Part shown: piece after piece, positions 2,842 to 17,966 of the stretch
How positions within the stretch are numbered: the stretch's first letter is position 1
Layout of the letters: the number at the start of each line of letters is the position of its first letter
Source: a virus
IMG/VR virus record: IMGVR_UViG_3300027782_000017
Coordinates: 1 to 28,275 of that record
Length of the DNA: 28,275 nt
Strand: one strand, 5' to 3'
Notes under the pieces: generated by a model
Databases searched by the model: none
Told to the model about the DNA's origin: nothing
What the model saw: the letters and a program-made list of their open reading frames with translations, nothing else
Program-made: the position numbers and the translations under genes

Positions 2842-4698
2842 TTAGCTGGCTATTGACTCACTTGACGTGACCAGATCATTCCAAAGCATCACCATGGCGA
2901 GCTGCATGATTTCGCAGTCGTGCAGATGGTCGGGCCACTTTTGGTTCCTTTTAACCCAGACGTGCTTGATGCGGCCAGCGCGGTTGGCTTGGGGTCGTAG
3001 GACGTGAGAGTCGAGGTGTCGCCAGTACAGGTCGGGCTCGGCGATGTAGGCTCCTTCGGCCTGGACGCTGGGCGGATCCTGATCAACGCCCCATTCCCGG
3101 TCGATGTCGCCCTTCCTTAGCCTGGAGAGCATATCGCGGAGGTGCTCGGTGTCGAACACCAGGAGCGGCTGCACCACGTCGGTCCTCATCGAGGAGGATG
3201 TCGACAGGCCGAAAGGGTGCACCGCCCCGGTGGCTGCTGTGAACCGCGCGCCGGTCTCCCGGCCTTTGAGTGGCATCCAGCCGATTACCATGGGCTTGCG
3301 GAGGCCGCCTTCCGGTGGGTAGCGGAGGCCGCATGGGAAGTTGATCGGGTTGGATGTCACTGAGGAATAGGAGGCACAGGCGTCGTAAACGGTCTGGGTG
3401 TTGAAGCCGCTGTCGATGCCGACATCCATGTCGTGGACCTCGAGGGCCACCTGCACCCGGCGAAGGGCTGCAAAGTCGTCGGCATGGCCGGCAGCAATCA
3501 GGGTAGAGTTGCCGTCTTTCCATTCCCTGCACACCCACCACAAGAACGGCGCCACAGCCTGGACGTCGGCGGTCAGATAGCGGCGGCCGCCATCGACGGT
3601 TACGGTGGCCGCGGTCTCAGTGCGCTCCTGCTGCACGTCCTGTTGCTCCCATGGCTCGGCAAGGTTTCCATTAATAAAGCCTTGGAGGCCGGCCATTGAT
3701 GCCTTGGCCTCGAGGAATGAGACCGCCAGATATCCCCAGGTGCATTTGCGGTCGGGGCTGTAGAGGCTGCTCAGGTGGTAGGACCGCACACCGGGCATGG
3801 CGTTTGGGTTCTCTGGGCGCCATTGGCCGTGTCGGAGGGCTGCCACCTTGTGAGAGTCGGTGATTTTGCCCTGGCAGAGCTGGCAGACGTAATGGGCCGA
3901 GGATCGGATCTTGCCCAAGTCGTGTTTGCCGTCCTCGGCCTTGGCGTCGTCCCAGGTGACCTGGCGCCATTCAAGCTTGATGTACTCACGGCAGTGGGGG
4001 CAGGGCAGGTAGTACTGGCGCTGGTCACCACGGAGGAAGCGCTGCCAGATCCGGCCTTCGACCACCGTCGGTGTGCTGGTCATAAAGGCCTTGGAGCTTG
4101 AGAAGCTCTTGAGGCGCTGCTCGGCCAGGTCGAGGGCGTCGGCCTCTCGGGCAGTAGCCTCGGCGAACTTGTCGACCTCGTCGGCGATGAGCACCCGAAC
4201 AGGGCGGCTGGCTAGGTTGGCCGGGCTGTTGGATCCTACGAAAGTCAGGGTCGAACGTGTGAAGTTCTGCTCTAGGTTGGTGATCTTGTCGGCCTCGGCC
4301 GGGTAGCACTCGAGCATGGCCGGGCTGTCCTCGAGCATGGGAAGCCAGCGGCTCTTCGAGAATGACCTGGCCAAGGACTCGGTAGGCATCAGCCACAAGG
4401 CCGGGCTCGGCTCGTTGGCGATTAGCCAGGCCAGGCCGGCCATCAGGGTGGTCGTCTTCGATGTCTGCGATCCCCAGCACAGGGTCACCTCGTAGACCGT
4501 CGGGTCTTTCCAGGCCTCCATGGGCTCCCGGGTATACGGTCGTACCGAGGTGCTGAATGGTCCTGGGTGCTCGGTCTGCCGTTGGGTCAGCCGGAGTGAT
4601 GCCTCGGCCCAGTCGACCACCGTCTGCATGGGTGTCGGCCGGTAGAGATTGCGTCGGTAGTCCAGGAGGCTGCGCTGGAGGTCGGTCAGGTTTTCCAT
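2842..4698 (-). CDS. Terminase large subunit (lambda gpA-type, GpA family)
   Basis: This is a 618-aa protein from ATG 4698; a longer frame extends to 4743 but starts with a non-ATG codon well inside the small terminase. It is the ATP-driven DNA packaging motor and nuclease. Visible motifs are a variant Walker A, WGSQTSKTTT (about 75-84), Walker B, VLIADEVDKF (about 169-178), and a Zn-binding pair CPHC (233-236) with CQLC (272-275), typical of the GpA family. The RNase H-like nuclease domain has acidic residues in TADVQ (Asp378) and VGIDSGFNT (Asp429). Length is close to lambda gpA (about 640 aa). It overlaps the small subunit by 13 nt and ends 41 nt before the next gene. Confidence 0.95.
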   Translation of the reverse strand: MENLTDLQRSLLDYRRNLYRPTPMQTVVDWAEASLRLTQRQTEHPGPFSTSVRPYTREPMEAWKDPTVYEVTLCWGSQTSKTTTLMAGLAWLIANEPSPALWLMPTESLARSFSKSRWLPMLEDSPAMLECYPAEADKITNLEQNFTRSTLTFVGSNSPANLASRPVRVLIADEVDKFAEATAREADALDLAEQRLKSFSSSKAFMTSTPTVVEGRIWQRFLRGDQRQYYLPCPHCREYIKLEWRQVTWDDAKAEDGKHDLGKIRSSAHYVCQLCQGKITDSHKVAALRHGQWRPENPNAMPGVRSYHLSSLYSPDRKCTWGYLAVSFLEAKASMAGLQGFINGNLAEPWEQQDVQQERTETAATVTVDGGRRYLTADVQAVAPFLWWVCREWKDGNSTLIAAGHADDFAALRRVQVALEVHDMDVGIDSGFNTQTVYDACASYSSVTSNPINFPCGLRYPPEGGLRKPMVIGWMPLKGRETGARFTAATGAVHPFGLSTSSSMRTDVVQPLLVFDTEHLRDMLSRLRKGDIDREWGVDQDPPSVQAEGAYIAEPDLYWRHLDSHVLRPQANRAGRIKHVWVKRNQKWPDHLHDCEIMQLAMVMLWNDLVTSSESIAS

Positions 4699-5318
4699 GG
4701 GTCGGTGTTGTGTAGGGTCTTGAGCGCCACCTCCTGGACCCACCGGGTCAGCTCGCGCTCGGCGTGCTCGGGGTCATGCGGTGCAATACGGCCGGAGAGC
4801 TGCTTAGGCATGGCCTTGATCAGCGAGGCCACGGCGCCGTCGTGCTCCTGCATCACCCGGCGCACCCAGTCGCCGGAGACCAGGCGACGCTCCTTCTCGG
4901 CCTGGGTGATCACCTCGTCCCTGGCGCTGGTAAGGTTCTTGGCTGCCGCGGCATGGATGGCGACCAGCCGGCCGGCGTCGGCTCGACCACCGCGGAGGGC
5001 ATCGACAGCCAGGTCATAGGCTGCACGCTCGATCTGGCGCTGCCTTTCGTAAGCGCCTTCTGGCGAGTCGGTGGCGGCTGTTGCGGTGTTGAGAGGGGTG
5101 TCTGCTTCAATAGGCCTGTAGGGGCCTTCCTGTTCGATTGCAGGGGCGTCTGGTATTGGTGGCGATTGTATGTGTTGAGTCGTCGACTTTGACCGGATGT
5201 TTTTCTTGCGCCAGGCATCGGCGACCTCGGGACTATGCATAGGCATTCCCTTGGCAGCCAGTTGTGTGACGTAGCCATGCGAAACACCGGCGTGCTTGGC
5301 GTATTCCCGCTGGGTCAT
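4686..5318 (-). CDS. Terminase small subunit (Nu1-like, HTH)
   Basis: This 210-aa protein begins with a helix-turn-helix of the Nu1/excisionase type: TQREYAKHAGVSHGYVTQL (residues 2-20), followed by GMPMHSPEVADAW. The N-terminus would recognise the packaging site and the long helical C-terminal part (about 95-200) would oligomerise and bind the large subunit. The middle (45-85) is Pro/Thr rich and probably flexible. It lies directly upstream of the large terminase, as in most tailed phages, and its ATG overlaps the stop of the 75-aa gene (ATGA). Confidence 0.85.
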   Translation of the reverse strand: MTQREYAKHAGVSHGYVTQLAAKGMPMHSPEVADAWRKKNIRSKSTTQHIQSPPIPDAPAIEQEGPYRPIEADTPLNTATAATDSPEGAYERQRQIERAAYDLAVDALRGGRADAGRLVAIHAAAAKNLTSARDEVITQAEKERRLVSGDWVRRVMQEHDGAVASLIKAMPKQLSGRIAPHDPEHAERELTRWVQEVALKTLHNTDPWKT

Positions 5319-6003: not shown

Positions 6004-7299
6004 TTAAAAGGAAGGTGATGGGTCGGTGAACCGGCAGTATTGGCCTTCGTACCATAGGGGAACGAGGCCGCACTCGCCGTCTCGTTGTTTGGCGACAGCG
6101 ATGATAGCCTCGCCGTTGGCTTGGTTGCGTTCCCGGTTGACCAGCAGGACTAGGTCGGCGTCACGTTCTATCTGCCCAGAGTCGGCCAGGTCGGTAAGTC
6201 TAGGCACCCGGCCTTTGTCCTTTTCGTTCTCCCTGTTTAATTGCGCCAGGGCGACCACCGCGGTCTTGGTGTCGGAAGCAATGGCCTTGAGTCGACCGGA
6301 GACCTCGGCGATCTCGTAGGTCTTCTTCTCGGCCGCCTTGCTGCCGTGAATCTTCTGGAGGTAGTCGATCAACACCAGCTTGACGCCCCACTTCCTGACG
6401 GCCCGGCGGATCACCGCGGTGATGGTGGCGATGCCGGACACATCGGAACCGGAGACAAAGTAGATCGGGCTGCCGGCCACCTTAGCGGAGGCGCTGGCCA
6501 TAGCCTTCATTCCGCCTTCATCTAGGTCGCCGGTCTTGATGTCCTGCATCGGAATAGATCCTACGGTAGAGACCATTCTCCGAACAATAGACTCGTCGGA
6601 CATCTCCAGCGATATAAACAGGGTCGGCACCCGGTGCTCGATGGCTGCTGCCCGGGCTATTGCGATGGCAATGGCGGTCTTTCCGATGCTTGGCCTGGCC
6701 GCAATGATGGCAAGCTCGCCGAACTGAAATCCGTCTGTCATTAGGTCCAAACGCCGGAAGCCGGAGGTGATGCCGGACAGGTGGCCCTTCCTCGAGAAGC
6801 GCTCTTGGGTAGAGTCAATGAACCGACTGACTACCGACTTGCAGGGTTGCATCTCTTCCTTGGATGCCTCGACGGTGAGCCCTGCTTCGGCATTGGCGAC
6901 GATTTGATCCACAGACAGGGTGGTGACAGCAGAATCGCGAATCAGACGGTCACCGGCGAATCGTAACTGCCGGCGGTGATGGGCCTCGAGGACAGCCTTG
7001 GCAAACTCGGGATGGTTGGCCGGGCTGGCGCATATCTCGTCGCACTTGTTCAGAGCCTCGAAAGGCACCGGATTACCTGGCATCGAGCGTTTCCATTCCT
7101 TCACCACGCTCTGGAGGTTGACCGGCTCGGTCTTGGCGACCAGGCCTTTGGCCACCTCGTAGATCTGGCGCAGGCTGTCGTTCTGGATTGCCTCGGTGGT
7201 GATCCTTGAGAACACCTCGTAGCAGACATCCGAGCCACCGGATAGGCAGGCGCCCAGGAGTCCGAACTCGTCGTCCTCGGCGAAGTAGGGGTCGCTCAT
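6004..7299 (-). CDS. dnaB: Replicative DNA helicase, DnaB family
   Basis: This 431-aa protein has the DnaB layout: an N-terminal helical domain (about 5-110), a linker, and a RecA-fold ATPase. Walker A is ARPSIGKTA (201-209), the LEMS box lies at 231-234, and Walker B is VLIDYLQ (309-315). A QLNRENEKDKGRVPRLTDL segment and a late QRDGECG follow, the region where DnaB-family arginine finger and DNA-loop residues occur. It would unwind the phage replication fork as a hexamer. No primase domain is fused, so priming would depend on host DnaG. Its ATG overlaps the stop of the loader/initiator gene (ATGA). Confidence 0.95.
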   Translation of the reverse strand: MSDPYFAEDDEFGLLGACLSGGSDVCYEVFSRITTEAIQNDSLRQIYEVAKGLVAKTEPVNLQSVVKEWKRSMPGNPVPFEALNKCDEICASPANHPEFAKAVLEAHHRRQLRFAGDRLIRDSAVTTLSVDQIVANAEAGLTVEASKEEMQPCKSVVSRFIDSTQERFSRKGHLSGITSGFRRLDLMTDGFQFGELAIIAARPSIGKTAIAIAIARAAAIEHRVPTLFISLEMSDESIVRRMVSTVGSIPMQDIKTGDLDEGGMKAMASASAKVAGSPIYFVSGSDVSGIATITAVIRRAVRKWGVKLVLIDYLQKIHGSKAAEKKTYEIAEVSGRLKAIASDTKTAVVALAQLNRENEKDKGRVPRLTDLADSGQIERDADLVLLVNRERNQANGEAIIAVAKQRDGECGLVPLWYEGQYCRFTDPSPSF

Positions 7300-8051
7300 T
7301 GCCAGTTAGTGATGTCGGCGCTGATAGCGCCTGGGTTGTTGTTGCCGGAGATGAGATCGCTTTGAGTCTTGTCGATCTCACCGTTCCAGTGGTTCAACAA
7401 GGTCTCAAGTTCACGCCGGAGATACGGGTCGTTTGATTTGTAGCGTTGCTCCAGGCGAACGACATCTTCTTCAGGTGTGTTTAAGTCGAACACCTCTTTC
7501 AGCTTTTTGATCTCACTGGTAGACCATTTGGTCGAAGGCCTCCGGCGAAGCATAGCACCAACACGTAGTCGGAAGGCTTCAAGATCAGGAGCAAGCTCTC
7601 TCGTGGAAACTCCTTCCTTTCCCTTCCTTGTTCCCTTCCCTTCCTTGTGGCACGCGTCGTCGTCGCGTGGCTCACGCGTGGCTGACGCGTCGATTTCCTC
7701 GGTAATTGCGCCATTTTCCGAGTAATCCGGCAGGATTGATGCCCTTTCCTTGTTGTTGACCACTTGATGCTTTAGGAAGCTCGGAATGCATCCAAAATAC
7801 TCGTCATCTACGCGATATCTGAAAACGAAACCACGCGTGGTCAACGCGTCGAGCACGCGTGAAAAGTCGACCCCATCGTAGGGCAGCACCTGCACACCGA
7901 TGCGCCGAGGCTCCCACTTAAAACGGCCTTCCCGGTCAGCAATGCACCAGAGGCCAGCAAATGCCACGCGGATCGGTAGCTTGGTTTCCAGCTCGGCCTC
8001 GAACAGTCCCTCATGATGGAAGAACTCCGGCTTGATCGTGCGGATTCTCAT
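7296..8051 (-). CDS. Replication initiator / helicase loader-like protein with winged-helix N-terminus
   Basis: This 251-aa protein begins MRIRTIKPEFFHHEGL, and the N-terminal part (1-100), with LPIRVAFAGLWCIADREGR, matches the common phage replication proteins with a winged-helix fold (DnaD/DnaT or lambda O-like role). Residues 115-150 are charged low-complexity linker (EPRDDDACHKEGKG). Residues 155-240 form a second helical domain that could contact DnaB, which is encoded immediately downstream. The DNA for residues 63-74 and 119-134 contains 11-bp-phased ACGCGT iterons, so the gene may contain its own origin as lambda O does. ATG 8051 overlaps the HNH gene's stop (ATGA). The exact family is not certain. 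Confidence 0.75.
   Translation of the reverse strand: MRIRTIKPEFFHHEGLFEAELETKLPIRVAFAGLWCIADREGRFKWEPRRIGVQVLPYDGVDFSRVLDALTTRGFVFRYRVDDEYFGCIPSFLKHQVVNNKERASILPDYSENGAITEEIDASATREPRDDDACHKEGKGTRKGKEGVSTRELAPDLEAFRLRVGAMLRRRPSTKWSTSEIKKLKEVFDLNTPEEDVVRLEQRYKSNDPYLRRELETLLNHWNGEIDKTQSDLISGNNNPGAISADITNWQ
7610..7646. other. Polypyrimidine tract beside the iterons
   Basis: In these 37 bases the plus strand has only one purine (G at 7630), built from repeated CCTT/CCCTT units. The minus strand is correspondingly purine-rich and encodes the Lys/Gly/Glu linker KEGKGTRKGKEG of the initiator. Asymmetric tracts of this kind occur at some replication origins and can be easily melted or form triplexes. 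The role here is inferred from its position next to iteron cluster A. Confidence 0.5.
7651..7694. repeat. Iteron cluster A: four 11-bp units around ACGCGT (candidate origin)
   Basis: ACGCGT occurs at 7652, 7674 and 7685, with the one-mismatch copy TCGCGT at 7663. The four cores are therefore spaced exactly 11 bp apart, roughly one helical turn. The consensus unit is close to (c/g)ACGCGT(c/g)g followed by two variable bases. The core is its own reverse complement. It lies in the part of the initiator gene that codes for a charged linker. Confidence 0.7.
7832..7864. repeat. Iteron cluster B: three 11-bp units around ACGCGT (candidate origin)
   Basis: ACGCGT occurs at 7833, 7844 and 7855, again exactly 11 bp apart. 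The first sits in the 10-bp perfect palindrome CCACGCGTGG (7831-7840). A weaker ACGCGA lies at 7810. The stretch between clusters (7695-7831) looks richer in A+T than its surroundings and could be the unwinding region. Confidence 0.7.
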
Positions 8052-8536
8052 TGGTTAGAGGTTTGTTGTTTTCGGGTTGCCATAACCTGTTTAGAAAGGT
8101 TAGTCAGCCATTCTGCCGTCATAATCCCGTGATCGGCGGCGTCTTTCAAAAGGTGCATTGTCTCAAACGGAGGCCACCCAGCCTCCTGACCAGCTTTTTC
8201 GACCAAGAACAGAACACCTTTGTCGTGATCTATATCGTGGTGGTTCATTTGAATCTGGCGCTTGATCTCGTAACAAGCTGACAGCTCCCAAGAGGTAAAG
8301 AAGGTTGGGAACGACTGCGAATCCTCGTGACCTTCAAAGTGACATTTTCGGCACATCGTTGCCATTGATCCCCCTGGGTATTCCCAAGGCATTCTTCCCG
8401 AAACGTAGTAAAAGTGGTGAACCGTCAGTGTGTTGGTTTCGGACAAGCACTTTACGCACTGAAAGCCGTCTCTCGACATGATTTCTAGGCGCTTTTTCTG
8501 CCACCGCGGATGTTGGAGCTTTTCGGAGTAGGTCAT
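8048..8536 (-). CDS. HNH-type zinc-binding endonuclease-like protein
   Basis: This 162-aa protein has an N-terminal HNH-like domain: QKKRLEIMSRDGFQCVKC, then TVHH (the metal and catalytic His pair), then a second cysteine pair in MCRKCH. Two CxxC motifs around a central HH define the zinc-stabilised HNH fold. Residues 75-160 form a helical extension without a known motif. Possible roles are nicking during replication or packaging, or a homing nuclease. The location in the replication block, rather than beside terminase, argues for a replication or recombination function. It is ATGA-coupled to genes on both sides if the 32-aa ORF upstream is real. Confidence 0.75.
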   Translation of the reverse strand: MTYSEKLQHPRWQKKRLEIMSRDGFQCVKCLSETNTLTVHHFYYVSGRMPWEYPGGSMATMCRKCHFEGHEDSQSFPTFFTSWELSACYEIKRQIQMNHHDIDHDKGVLFLVEKAGQEAGWPPFETMHLLKDAADHGIMTAEWLTNLSKQVMATRKQQTSNQ

Positions 8537-8631
8537 AATTCAAACAGAGACCCCGTCACGCACCGTGCTAGGAACTCGCGGAGAAACAACGCGACGTTAC
8601 ACGATGCGGACGGGGGAAATTGGTTGAACAT
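8533..8631 (-). CDS. Possible 32-aa small protein
   Basis: The ORF starts at ATG 8631 with a weak purine-rich AGAGAAACC upstream and ends in a TGA that overlaps the HNH start as ATGA. The product begins MFNQFPPSASCN and is partly hydrophobic. The coupling geometry matches its neighbours, which is the main support. It could equally be a leader that couples translation of the HNH gene, or a chance ORF. Confidence 0.3.
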   Translation of the reverse strand: MFNQFPPSASCNVALFLREFLARCVTGSLFEL

Positions 8632-8717
8632 GGTTTCTCTTGTGGTGCCTGCGCTCGCTTCCTAGGGCTCACGCTGACGGTCTCTATCTATCTGCTCTCC
8701 TGGTCGATGTCCAGCCC
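8632..8717. other. Intergenic segment between exonuclease and HNH block
   Basis: Together with the 32-aa ORF this makes a roughly 180-bp gap between confident genes. I see a short AGATAGATAGAG run on the minus strand and no convincing promoter, terminator or RNA gene. Confidence 0.4.
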
Positions 8718-9380
8718 TCAGTAAGCCGGCATCAGGATGTCGGCCACCGCTTGGGTGAGCTTCACATCCTGGATGCAGTAGTTGATCGCCGCCTGCCGGT
8801 CGGTGTTCCACAGCAGGCTGAAGTCGGCGCCGTTGCCGCTCTTCTCGCCCAGTCCCAGGTGCCTCGAGATGGACGCAAGGCTGCCGTGGGACCGGTTGTC
8901 CCCGAGCTGCCACACCTCTCGAAGGTCGACCACCAGCTCCGACCAGTAGCGGCCATTCCTTAGCCAGTAGGGCGGCATGATCTTGTGGCGCCAGGAGCGT
9001 TTGATAAGGAAGGGCAAATCGAAGGCCTTGACGTTGAACCCGATGAGCTGGGGCTGGCGCTCGTAGTAGTTGAGAAGCGCCCACCATTGTCGCAGCAGGT
9101 GGGCCTCGCCGTCGGCATCGGCGCAGAGGATGTTTTGCTCCTGATGATCGACCCGGTAGCCGATGCAGAGCACCTGGCCCGACAAGGCATCCAGGGCGGC
9201 ATTGCGGATGTAGTCGGCCGTGTGACTTTCCTCGGCCTTCTGGAGCTTCTCGGCAATTAGGTCGGGGTTCTTGATGTTGCCCATCTTGACCTGCGTTGGG
9301 TCGAAGGGCGGGATGTTGAGCTGCTCGAGCGGTAAAGGCCCGGTCTCGATGTCGAAGTAGATGTTTGGATTGGCTGGCAT
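8718..9380 (-). CDS. 3'-5' exonuclease, DnaQ / DNA polymerase B exonuclease type
   Basis: This 220-aa protein carries the DEDDy exonuclease signature: motif I YFDIETGP (Asp10, Glu12), motif II IGFNVKAFDLPFL (Asp121), and motif III with Tyr201 and Asp205 in NYCIQDVKLT. The order and spacing match the stand-alone exonuclease domain of family B polymerases found in many phages. It would degrade or proofread DNA 3' ends in replication or recombination; no polymerase domain is attached. ATG 9380 is the first good start and lies 94 nt after the upstream gene. Confidence 0.88.
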   Translation of the reverse strand: MPANPNIYFDIETGPLPLEQLNIPPFDPTQVKMGNIKNPDLIAEKLQKAEESHTADYIRNAALDALSGQVLCIGYRVDHQEQNILCADADGEAHLLRQWWALLNYYERQPQLIGFNVKAFDLPFLIKRSWRHKIMPPYWLRNGRYWSELVVDLREVWQLGDNRSHGSLASISRHLGLGEKSGNGADFSLLWNTDRQAAINYCIQDVKLTQAVADILMPAY

Positions 9381-9446
9381 TTGTCAGAGTTGTTTAGAGT
9401 TGATGCGCGTTTGTCGGCCGATGCGCGCCCCCGGCACTACGAGTCC

Positions 9447-9467
9447 CCGACAGCAACAGGCTGCCGG
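9447..9467 (-). other. Stem-loop after the sigma4/alpha-CTD-like gene
   Basis: On the minus strand CCGGCAGC and GCTGTCGG can form an 8-bp stem (one G-U pair) around a 5-nt loop, beginning 7 nt after the stop codon at 9475. There is no T-run after it, so it may be an mRNA stabiliser or processing site and not a classical terminator. Confidence 0.4.
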
Positions 9468-9474
9468 AAAGTGG

Positions 9475-9870
9475 TTAGATCTTTTTGCCGCAATGTGGGC
9501 AGACGAGGAAGTTAATCGGCTCCCGGGTGGTCGGTACTTCCAGCCACTCGCAGATCTCATGATAGGAGACCCACCCAAAGCCTCGAACAGCTCCCGGTCG
9601 CAGGTGTCCGCTGTTATAGAGGTCGAGGGCCTGCTCACGGCTCTTGATGCACAGGCGTTCTAGAGTGTTGAACGTCCTAACCGAGAACGGGAAGCCCCAC
9701 AACTGAAGGATCTCCTCATGCATCTCGGCTGCCTGCTCAATCTGGTTGATGCGCTGCCTCGATAGGCCAAAATGCTCACCGATCTCCTTCAAACTCATCC
9801 CCTCAGAGCGCATCCGTACCACCTCGGGAATTTTGTCGACCAACTTAACGTATTTCTTTTTAGTTTTCAT
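9475..9870 (-). CDS. Putative transcription regulator: sigma-region-4-like HTH joined to RNA polymerase alpha-CTD-like domain
   Basis: This 131-aa protein starts at ATG 9870, one base overlapping the SSB stop (TGATG). Residues 25-47 (MSLKEIGEHFGLSRQRINQI) closely resemble sigma-70 region 4.2, the helix-turn-helix that reads the -35 element. Residues 58-112 contain SVRTFNTLERLCIKS and GFGWVSYHEICEWL, the pattern of the bacterial RNA polymerase alpha C-terminal domain, which binds UP-element DNA and activators. The tail has a CPHCGKK half zinc ribbon. The two modules together suggest a phage factor that redirects host RNA polymerase, possibly to late promoters. The domain calls come from reading motifs, and the function is inferred. 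Confidence 0.7.
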   Translation of the reverse strand: MKTKKKYVKLVDKIPEVVRMRSEGMSLKEIGEHFGLSRQRINQIEQAAEMHEEILQLWGFPFSVRTFNTLERLCIKSREQALDLYNSGHLRPGAVRGFGWVSYHEICEWLEVPTTREPINFLVCPHCGKKI

Positions 9871-15194: not shown

Positions 15195-17966
15195 CTATCG
15201 GAGATTAACGTATCGGATGCGGTCGAAATACTGAGTTGAGGTGGTCGGGTCGTAGTAACCGGATCCCTGGTTGGTCTCACCGAAGCTGTAGTTGCGCTTC
15301 GAAATGTAGCCTGTGGCTGCAATCGGAGGGCTGGCCCAGAATTGGCCGTTTTCGGTGTCGAAATTATACGAAATAAATCCCTGGCTGATGCTGTACGAAG
15401 CTAGATTTGCCGACGGAACATAATAACGAAGGTTCCCGACCGAATCTGTCGCTTGGTAGCAAATAATTCCGTTGGCAATTAGAAGGTCGTAAAGCGGCTC
15501 GGTCAGGTAAAAACATGGCCCACCGAACGCCTCTACGCCTGATGAATATATCAGCACCATTCCGATGGTCAGCACGCCCAGAACCCGAAAGGATCCGGTG
15601 GCGTCATACAGCGGGCAGGATGTTTCGCCATGGCATAGGGGCACCGCCCTGGTCCATGCACTGACCGACCATTCCATCAGATCCCAAAGCCAGGCCGACT
15701 TCGGGATCTTGTGGAAAAATGGGCCTCCTCCAGGACGGTAGGGGTTCTCAATCGGGCTGTAGGGCAGGTCAAAGCCGATTTGCTCGACGCCACCTGTCCA
15801 GCATATGTGGGTCATTTTGTCGAGATAGGGCGGTATGTAAGTCCCTGATTTGAACGGGACTGTTGATGCAAACGAGGCGCCGCGGCCGTCCTTGAAAACG
15901 TCATCTTTCCCGGCTGCCACTAGGTCGACGAAAGAGCTGTTTGGCGCTTCTGGTATGTATGAGTACTGCTCGGTCATGTTGGGCCTTCCTAGGATCCGCA
16001 CAGAGGCATCGGATCCGCCTGGGCCTCCCCACTTATTAACCCAGAAGTCGCCTCCCCATGGTCTGTCGTCTATTCCTGAGCTGAGGTCTATTTCGAGGAC
16101 CCTTACTAAGTCAAAGTCATAGATTGAACTGGAAAAACCCCAAGGGCCTCCTGGTGGAATGAACGCTGTATTGACCGCCTGCTCAGATGAACCAGGCACC
16201 GGGTTGCGAGCAGGTAAAATGTTGGACCATTGAAGCCTCGGGAAGGATCCTGCGACCTGGAGGTAGAAAATGTGAGTGCCTGAGGTGTACAGCCAGTTCC
16301 TCCAGGGGCCCACTCCGAATTGAGCGGCACGGTCTGCGACGTAGAGGGTCTCATTCGTGGCAATGGTCTCCAAGTTGTTGAGTAAGCTACCACCAATTCC
16401 CGATGAGGTTGCAGCCCGACACATCAGCCCCAACGGGGTCATGCTGATAATTGACACTTTTTCCTCCGTGATATCGTCGACCTCGGTGTAGTTGGTAAGG
16501 AATCCAACCTGGACGCCGATCTTGCGTCGGAGATCTCGCATCGAGTCGAATATGGTGGGCTCATTCCCGGCGTCCCATGTGTAGGTGCCTGGCCCGAGCA
16601 TAGGATCCATTCCCATGCTGTACTGGGCGGGGTAGATGGTCGAGATGGTGACCGGGCTCGAACCGATTTCCCAATACGGGTTTGACGTAGTCGTGAAGAT
16701 GTTGCTGTCGATGGGGTAGATTCGAATTGTTCCCATGGTGCTCGACAGCTCGATTTCGGTGTCGGTCACGTTCACAGTCGCCCCTAGGTCTCTTAGGTTT
16801 TGAACCAGATTATTGGCGCCGGAGAATATCTTGATGACGTCCGTGAATACATCACCCGCGGCGTTGGCGTAGGTTACCCGGGCACGTCCCCAGGTGAACA
16901 CGGCATCACCGATGGTCGTGTTGGCGTTAGATGGGTCGGCATAGACTCCGGTGTAGACTTGCCGCGGGTCGTACGGGATGAATGGGTCATGGACCGCGCC
17001 CATTACTTGGCGCCATTGAAACAAGATGAACGGGTTGGCGACGTTGTTAGCCTGCGCTGATTTCTCAATGGCTACAAAATTGGCCTGGGTTACACTGTCC
17101 GACCATTCTGGTGGGCCTTCTGCCAAGAACGGGATGTCCCCGCTGAAGTACGGAAAAAAGTAACAGCAGACTCCACCACTCGGGAATCGAGCTGCCCATT
17201 TGCCGTCAGGTCGGCGCCGGAATGCTCGACAGGATCCGCGGTCGACCAGGTGCCGGTCGGCGCTTCCGTCGGGATTCTGGAGGAACACGGTAACACCGCT
17301 CTGGCCGCACGCATGGACCCGCCAGCAGTCGTATCGCTGGTAGGTGTTTAGGATCTTAAACTCGGATGGGCCCTCGACTGCGATCTCGGCGACAGCCAAG
17401 CGGTGCTTGTGGATACGACCAGGAGGCAGTGTCGGGTCAATACCAGGTCCAAGGCTTCCGCGGACATAGGACGTCAGCCCCGATCCTTCTGGTGGATCCC
17501 AGCCCAGATGGACATCGTATTTTATGCCATCAATCTCTTTGGTTAACAGCTCAAAGCTGTAGTGGATGTCTGATATATTACAAGCAAATGTATCGTTAGG
17601 ATAAACCCAGTGATCAACATAAACCTGTCCGCCTTCTTTATCTACATATTGATTTTCAAGAGTTGATAGCTGGATGCCTGCGTTGATTTGTTGATAATTA
17701 TCAAGCCACTCGCCTCCAATTCCTGGTATGTAATTGGGGCCTACAGGGTTATCGGCCCTCAACCTTTTACATGAATTTGCGTCGTTTCTATAAACATACC
17801 ACACTCCGTATGGATATTTTCCTATCCAAGCTCCATCTGGTGAGTCAGCAAACAATGGACTCATGCCGTTAAGAGCCAGATAGCACTTCCGGTCAAAACG
17901 CGCATACAGATCGTTCAGGTTTTTGGCCGTGAACATCTTGTCTTTCCGATCTGTGGCGAAAGCCAT
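15195..17966 (-). CDS. Large tail-tip / receptor-binding candidate protein (923 aa)
   Basis: This is the largest protein in the genome and the last in the tail module. It begins MAFATDRKDKMFTAKNLNDL and shows no collagen-like or coiled-coil repeats. It is rich in Gly, Pro, Tyr and Trp, as expected of a beta-rich tail hub, tip or host-recognition protein. It follows small tail-tip genes, with a single base between the upstream stop and its ATG. I do not recognise a named family, so the role is inferred from size and position. Its 5' part (about 17500-17900) is noticeably more A+T-rich than the rest, possibly reflecting module exchange. Confidence 0.72.
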   Translation of the reverse strand: MAFATDRKDKMFTAKNLNDLYARFDRKCYLALNGMSPLFADSPDGAWIGKYPYGVWYVYRNDANSCKRLRADNPVGPNYIPGIGGEWLDNYQQINAGIQLSTLENQYVDKEGGQVYVDHWVYPNDTFACNISDIHYSFELLTKEIDGIKYDVHLGWDPPEGSGLTSYVRGSLGPGIDPTLPPGRIHKHRLAVAEIAVEGPSEFKILNTYQRYDCWRVHACGQSGVTVFLQNPDGSADRHLVDRGSCRAFRRRPDGKWAARFPSGGVCCYFFPYFSGDIPFLAEGPPEWSDSVTQANFVAIEKSAQANNVANPFILFQWRQVMGAVHDPFIPYDPRQVYTGVYADPSNANTTIGDAVFTWGRARVTYANAAGDVFTDVIKIFSGANNLVQNLRDLGATVNVTDTEIELSSTMGTIRIYPIDSNIFTTTSNPYWEIGSSPVTISTIYPAQYSMGMDPMLGPGTYTWDAGNEPTIFDSMRDLRRKIGVQVGFLTNYTEVDDITEEKVSIISMTPLGLMCRAATSSGIGGSLLNNLETIATNETLYVADRAAQFGVGPWRNWLYTSGTHIFYLQVAGSFPRLQWSNILPARNPVPGSSEQAVNTAFIPPGGPWGFSSSIYDFDLVRVLEIDLSSGIDDRPWGGDFWVNKWGGPGGSDASVRILGRPNMTEQYSYIPEAPNSSFVDLVAAGKDDVFKDGRGASFASTVPFKSGTYIPPYLDKMTHICWTGGVEQIGFDLPYSPIENPYRPGGGPFFHKIPKSAWLWDLMEWSVSAWTRAVPLCHGETSCPLYDATGSFRVLGVLTIGMVLIYSSGVEAFGGPCFYLTEPLYDLLIANGIICYQATDSVGNLRYYVPSANLASYSISQGFISYNFDTENGQFWASPPIAATGYISKRNYSFGETNQGSGYYDPTTSTQYFDRIRYVNLR

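Follow-up and report, generated by a model that had tools for sequence, protein, structure and literature searches.

The virus record analysed here (the window, 28,275 bases) very probably carries its phage replication origin inside the gene of its own initiator, in the segment 7599-7862, with a mechanism resembling that of phage lambda: binding of iterons, opening of a tract and hand-over to the helicase. A candidate origin of this kind, with iterons in the linker codons of the gene, had been proposed in an earlier note made from the letters alone, and it is now strongly supported by synonymous constraint, by the recurrence of the pattern in HK639-like phages, by family-wide phasing, by a disordered linker in the predicted structure and by a helicase-side neighbour. 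Origin activity and binding of the iterons by the gene's own product are what we infer from arrays that are phased, conserved and under selection as DNA, and from the domain layout and gene neighbourhood in which they are set.

Two phased iteron arrays and a purine tract

An exact search of the window finds ACGCGT six times (7652, 7674, 7685, 7833, 7844 and 7855) and nowhere else, always inside the initiator gene and in two arrays phased at 11 bp; a TCGCGT at 7663 falls within the 11-bp series of the linker array (Table 1). The earlier note had given these positions, with exact spacing in two clusters, and had seen by eye no further ACGCGT in the window; all of this holds over the 28,275 bases. 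The total, counted against random expectation as the note had advised, is not unusual (6 versus 7.05 expected from shuffles). What is unusual is that every copy lies in one of the two arrays, and in phase: there are three ACGCGT pairs at exactly 11 bp, plus one at 22 bp bridged by TCGCGT, and a single 11-bp pair arose in 0 of 300 first-order Markov simulations. A step of 11 bp does not divide into whole codons, so neither array can be put down to codons being repeated.

Table 1. Coordinates of the candidate origin, of the gene that contains it and of the adjoining helicase gene.
Feature	Position	Strand	Remarks
Initiator gene, 251 aa	7296-8051	(-)	phrog_16167 match; AlphaFold2 model
Predicted winged-helix N-domain	residues 1-110 of the initiator		AlphaFold2 topology
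Predicted disordered linker	residues 113-154 of the initiator		low pLDDT (AlphaFold2)
Predicted helical C-domain	residues 155-235 of the initiator		AlphaFold2, less certain
Linker iteron array	7652-7690	(-)	ACGCGT-ACGCGT-ACGCGA-ACGCGT in exact 11-bp steps, read from 7690 down to 7652 on the coding strand; encodes residues 121-134
Helix iteron array	7833-7860	(-)	three ACGCGT in 11-bp steps; codons of residues 64-73
Purine tract, 37 nt	7610-7646	(-), coding strand	AAGGAAGGGAAGGGAACAAGGAAGGGAAAGGAAGGAG; purine throughout except for one C; immediately follows the linker array; may serve as unwinding or single-strand element
Strong synonymous constraint, span 1	7599-7706	(-)	linker array and tract; residues about 116-151
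Strong synonymous constraint, span 2	7809-7862	(-)	helix array; residues about 64-81
DnaB-type replicative helicase gene, 431 aa	6004-7299	(-)	PF03796, E 3.9e-71; PF00772

The conserved purine tract beside the linker array had been missed at first reading. A tandem repeat (7614-7648) lies in this region, and on the plus strand the tract shows a GC skew of -0.69 and an AT skew of -0.75, an extreme strand asymmetry. It is not AT-rich: its GC content is 52-55% in the window's clade and about 0.46 in the sister clade, where stability is lower. In the window's clade the duplex stability of the tract is -1.395 kcal/mol per step versus -1.475 for downstream DNA, a modest melting advantage; in the other clade the values are -1.291 and -1.489. 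GC skew along the window is uninformative as a sign of an origin, since nearly all genes are on one strand.

Selection on the DNA itself

We collected relatives of the gene from 80 IMG/VR loci, at 54-100% amino acid identity. The search for them used peptide patterns, which kept DNA words from biasing the choice of loci. Almost all have ACGCGT at gene offsets 191, 202 and 213 (L049 is without the first), and every relative whose contig extends that far has a second array in phase, at about 361-396 or 373-418. Insertions shift this second array yet leave its 11-bp step intact, and a fixed phase between the two arrays is ruled out by a gap that varies from 135 to 190 bp.

Outside the arrays, the loci of the relatives, about half a megabase in all, contain just two ACGCGT. 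This depletion was considered as proof that titration of the initiator is avoided and was rejected, as unrelated palindromes such as CAGCTG are equally depleted and the wider clade shows the effect only weakly; rarity of ACGCGT outside the arrays is thus weak evidence for an origin. Outside the gene, CAGCTG, GCATGC, CGATCG, CACGTG and ACGCGT are all strongly under-represented in loci L002-L081, which suggests restriction avoidance in this phage group.

Synonymous diversity, defined as the probability that a pair of sequences sharing an amino acid differ in its codon, was computed from a codon alignment of 40 diverse relatives. It is 0.033 at iteron codons versus 0.364 elsewhere (Mann-Whitney p 8e-11), so that the synonymous conservation to be expected of iterons, as first suggested, is indeed found; over the purine tract it is 0.02-0.06. 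The sliding profile has two sharp troughs, which define the constraint spans of Table 1. With synonymous variation this low at both cores and tract, it follows that the DNA itself is under selection. The same analysis on 44 diverse HK639-like enterobacterial phage sequences gives a baseline of 0.4-0.5, with drops to 0.09-0.17 at residues about 108-124, to about 0.08 at residues 136-144 and to 0.01-0.12 over 152-188. These stretches correspond to two 11-bp arrays, for example GAAGCACCAGA AAAGCACCATG CAAGTACAGTG CAAGAACCAGT, and to a TTTAAATCC...TGATTCC tract. As the HK639-like clade parted deeply from that of the window, the layout of iterons and tract is a property of the family.

The initiator and its neighbours

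The product of the gene had been labelled a helicase loader, and this label needs correcting. A PHROGs profile search places the protein in phrog_16167, 'replication initiation protein' (E 3.2e-42), and its N-domain matches two other families of that name, phrog_1408 (E 1.9e-22) and phrog_2149 (E 3.8e-17). The Pfam search yields no family at E 0.1, and neither DnaC or lambda P nor an AAA+ loader or P-type domain is among the Pfam and PHROGs matches. The AlphaFold2 model, built from 85 sequences, predicts a winged helix (residues 1-110, each ten-residue block at pLDDT 89-98) and a helical C-domain, and the protein is better called an initiator.

When the model is set against the coordinates, the linker array and the purine tract prove to be exactly codons of the disordered linker, in agreement with the first assignment of one cluster to a charged linker. 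The odd composition of this linker (K, E, G, R) can be traced to selection on the DNA, these being residues encodable by purine-only codons. The helix array encodes most of a predicted helix (63-72) that lies just before the beta-hairpin wing and, judging from winged-helix topology, should be the recognition helix.

A PDB search with the protein sequence or its profile gives nothing credible. The fold search with the model returns mostly winged-helix DNA binders and regulators, all of them weak and none under E 1e-3, including the centromere binders AspA and TubR; BFVD viral models named 'replisome organizer' match the fold well. The prevalence of winged-helix regulators among the PDB matches would suit arrays that are operators, through which a winged-helix protein represses its own transcription or that of its operon, with the origin elsewhere. 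Such a protein can bind direct repeats, and one of the two arrays in the window's clade is far from the tract. However, both arrays are deep within coding sequence, the region 7200-9500 holds one weak sigma-70-like match, as many as in shuffles, and an operator would not account for the constraint on the tract beside the array, for the place of the array in the linker in both clades or for the neighbouring helicase or loader gene. We therefore regard operators as improbable.

That neighbour is in the window the DnaB gene immediately downstream, whose start shares 4 nt with the stop end of the initiator gene. In other family members it is a DnaB, DnaC or lambda-P-type gene where recognised, and many neighbours are without a match to loader or helicase queries. 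A centromere-like partition site, or a terminase packaging site, is very improbable: partition systems do use phased direct repeats and would fit the weak matches to AspA and TubR, but no ParA/TubZ-type gene is found among the ORFs scanned, the terminase small-subunit gene (4686-5318) is away from the arrays, and the site follows the initiator gene through differing neighbourhoods, together with a helicase or loader. As to the remaining genes, no polymerase is recognised among the ORFs scanned in the window, a short 3'-5' exonuclease-like gene lies upstream of the initiator (8718-9380, minus strand; DNA_pol_B_exo2, E 2.1e-11), and a 923-aa ORF near the tail genes (15195-17966, minus strand) has no PHROGs match at E 0.001.

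Constant phase and changing cores across the family

Phasing was then scored in 143 distant relatives from viral contigs, bacterial genomes and annotated phages, including HK639 and other phages and prophages of many phyla, by comparing a four-unit column score with the 99th percentile of codon-shuffled genes. Period 11 exceeds this null in 79% of them and periods 8, 9, 12 and 13 in 4-6%; periods 7 and 10 score about 30%, an excess that probably reflects short-period tracts. A stricter exact-6-mer test of 11-bp phasing gives 54% versus 0.2%. The earlier note had made its proposal depend on phasing being kept in relatives, and it is kept, both in the arrays of the 80 close ones and in the period of the distant ones.

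The core words vary while the phase stays (ACGCGT, AGAACC/GCACC, ACGGGG and others). The window's clade has the core ACGCGT, residues GRFxW and a GGGAA-type tract; the other clade has residues GRLEDRP, cores such as GCACC, AGAAC, AAGCC and GAAGCA, and a TGATTCC-type tract. Even within the window's clade the core has been switched with phase and tract kept, to ACGGGG in L181 and GCGTC in L178. Its member L180 has an ACATGC word at 10-bp steps (ACATGCACGC, repeated at about 440-480 of the gene), the single clear change of period found in the GGGAA clade. A tree of 130 genes shows a single change of tract type (GGGAA or TGATTC) and, by parsimony, at least 8 changes in the presence of ACGCG, a soft number given that many forks are poorly supported. 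The split in tract type coincides with the deepest split of the tree, which makes it a single event that alone cannot link protein to tract. The helix array was observed in the GGGAA clade alone, and even this clade can do without it, because in some members ACGCGT is confined to the linker. A residue-level specificity code was rejected: W46 marks the GRFxW clade yet stays in members with changed cores, and specificity is therefore assigned to no residue. Some distant members have DnaT, DnaB_2 or Phg_2220_C C-domains.

An RNA-level or coding feature is scarcely credible in view of these cores: neighbouring ACGCGT copies can form a 6-bp hairpin and the tract looks like a very long Shine-Dalgarno sequence, but hairpins are ruled out by non-palindromic cores at the same 11-bp step (AGAACC, GCACC, ACGGGG), an internal ribosome site by the absence of an ATG within ribosome-site distance after the tract in the window and by TGATTCC tracts that cannot serve as such, and codon constraint by a step that does not repeat codons.

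Proposed mechanism and likeness to known origins

In the lambda-like origin that we favour, the N-terminal winged-helix domain would bind head-to-tail 11-bp iterons through their ACGCGT cores, one per helical turn, and the phase would place several initiator molecules side by side on the same face of the double helix. The main platform would be the linker array, and the array in the codons of the putative recognition helix an accessory one. Once bound, the array may open the adjoining strand-asymmetric tract, and the C-domain of the initiator would pass the single strand thus exposed to the DnaB that the next gene of the phage encodes.

In lambda, and in Stx phages, the origin is in the middle of the initiator gene O, with direct-repeat iterons bound by the product, a composition-biased tract and a helicase-loading gene next to it (PMC7466680; lambda record). 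The window shares with it direct-repeat iterons inside the initiator gene, their place in codons for the flexible linker that joins the DNA-binding domain to the C-terminal one, and a helicase-side gene immediately downstream, DnaB itself in this case. It differs in that lambda has four 18-bp iterons at 20-24 bp steps whereas here there are 11-bp steps in two arrays, one of them within the codons of the predicted recognition helix, and in that the tract, AT-rich in lambda, is here purine-rich with a balanced GC content. A comparison by hhalign detects no direct homology to lambda O (probability 0.3%), the initiator has no match to Phage_rep_O (PF04492) at E 0.1 whereas lambda O scores 5.7e-36, and the two share only the distant PHROG phrog_5810. 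By the tests run, the initiator is thus putatively lambda-like in function but outside the O protein family, in a family that is widespread and little studied.

Phage initiator genes are known to carry origin repeats, as in SPP1 gp38 and the Gram-positive phage replisome organizers; the likeness to these is one of fold, through the BFVD models, and the sequence families differ. Plasmid iterons are as a rule outside the rep gene; they also exceed ours in length, and the region opened beside them is rich in AT. Phased direct repeats, an adjacent opened region, an initiator and DnaB come together in iteron plasmids, which use Rep and a DNA-unwinding element (PMC4081077, PMC4980987), and phased repeats, adjoining tract, initiator and DnaB are also found together here. 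The description of the system as an undescribed initiator-origin pair needs qualifying, since PHROGs names the family and the layout is lambda-like. No description of the family's origin was found in the literature searched, which includes few subscription journals.

It is possible, and we put it forward tentatively, that these phages represent a widespread class of origin. Its 11-bp iterons, with fast-changing cores, would be bound by the winged-helix domain that they partly encode, down to the codons of its recognition helix in the window's clade, and its slowly changing strand-asymmetric GGGAA- or TGATTCC-type repeat would be a specific single-strand element like the bacterial DnaA-trio, not a plain AT-rich melting region. 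The combination of 11-bp phased iterons in linker codons with a GGGAA or TGATTCC tract provides a sequence rule by which candidate origins can be found in many phages and prophages that carry no annotation beyond 'replication initiation protein', including E. coli phage HK639. Changing cores with constant phase and tract make initiator-DNA specificity a tractable problem of co-evolution, and protein linkers, as this case shows, can be shaped by selection on DNA.

In the window, an HNH-endonuclease-like gene (8048-8536, minus strand; phrog_119, E 3.8e-12) is directly upstream of the initiator, and the cultured phages JBD44, D14C and Louie have HNH genes at the same place. In L319 an HNH-endonuclease-like stretch is encoded within the initiator linker (gene from 1201), where iterons normally sit, as if a homing endonuclease had entered the origin; L322 and L323 (gene from 1201) match across the same enlarged length.
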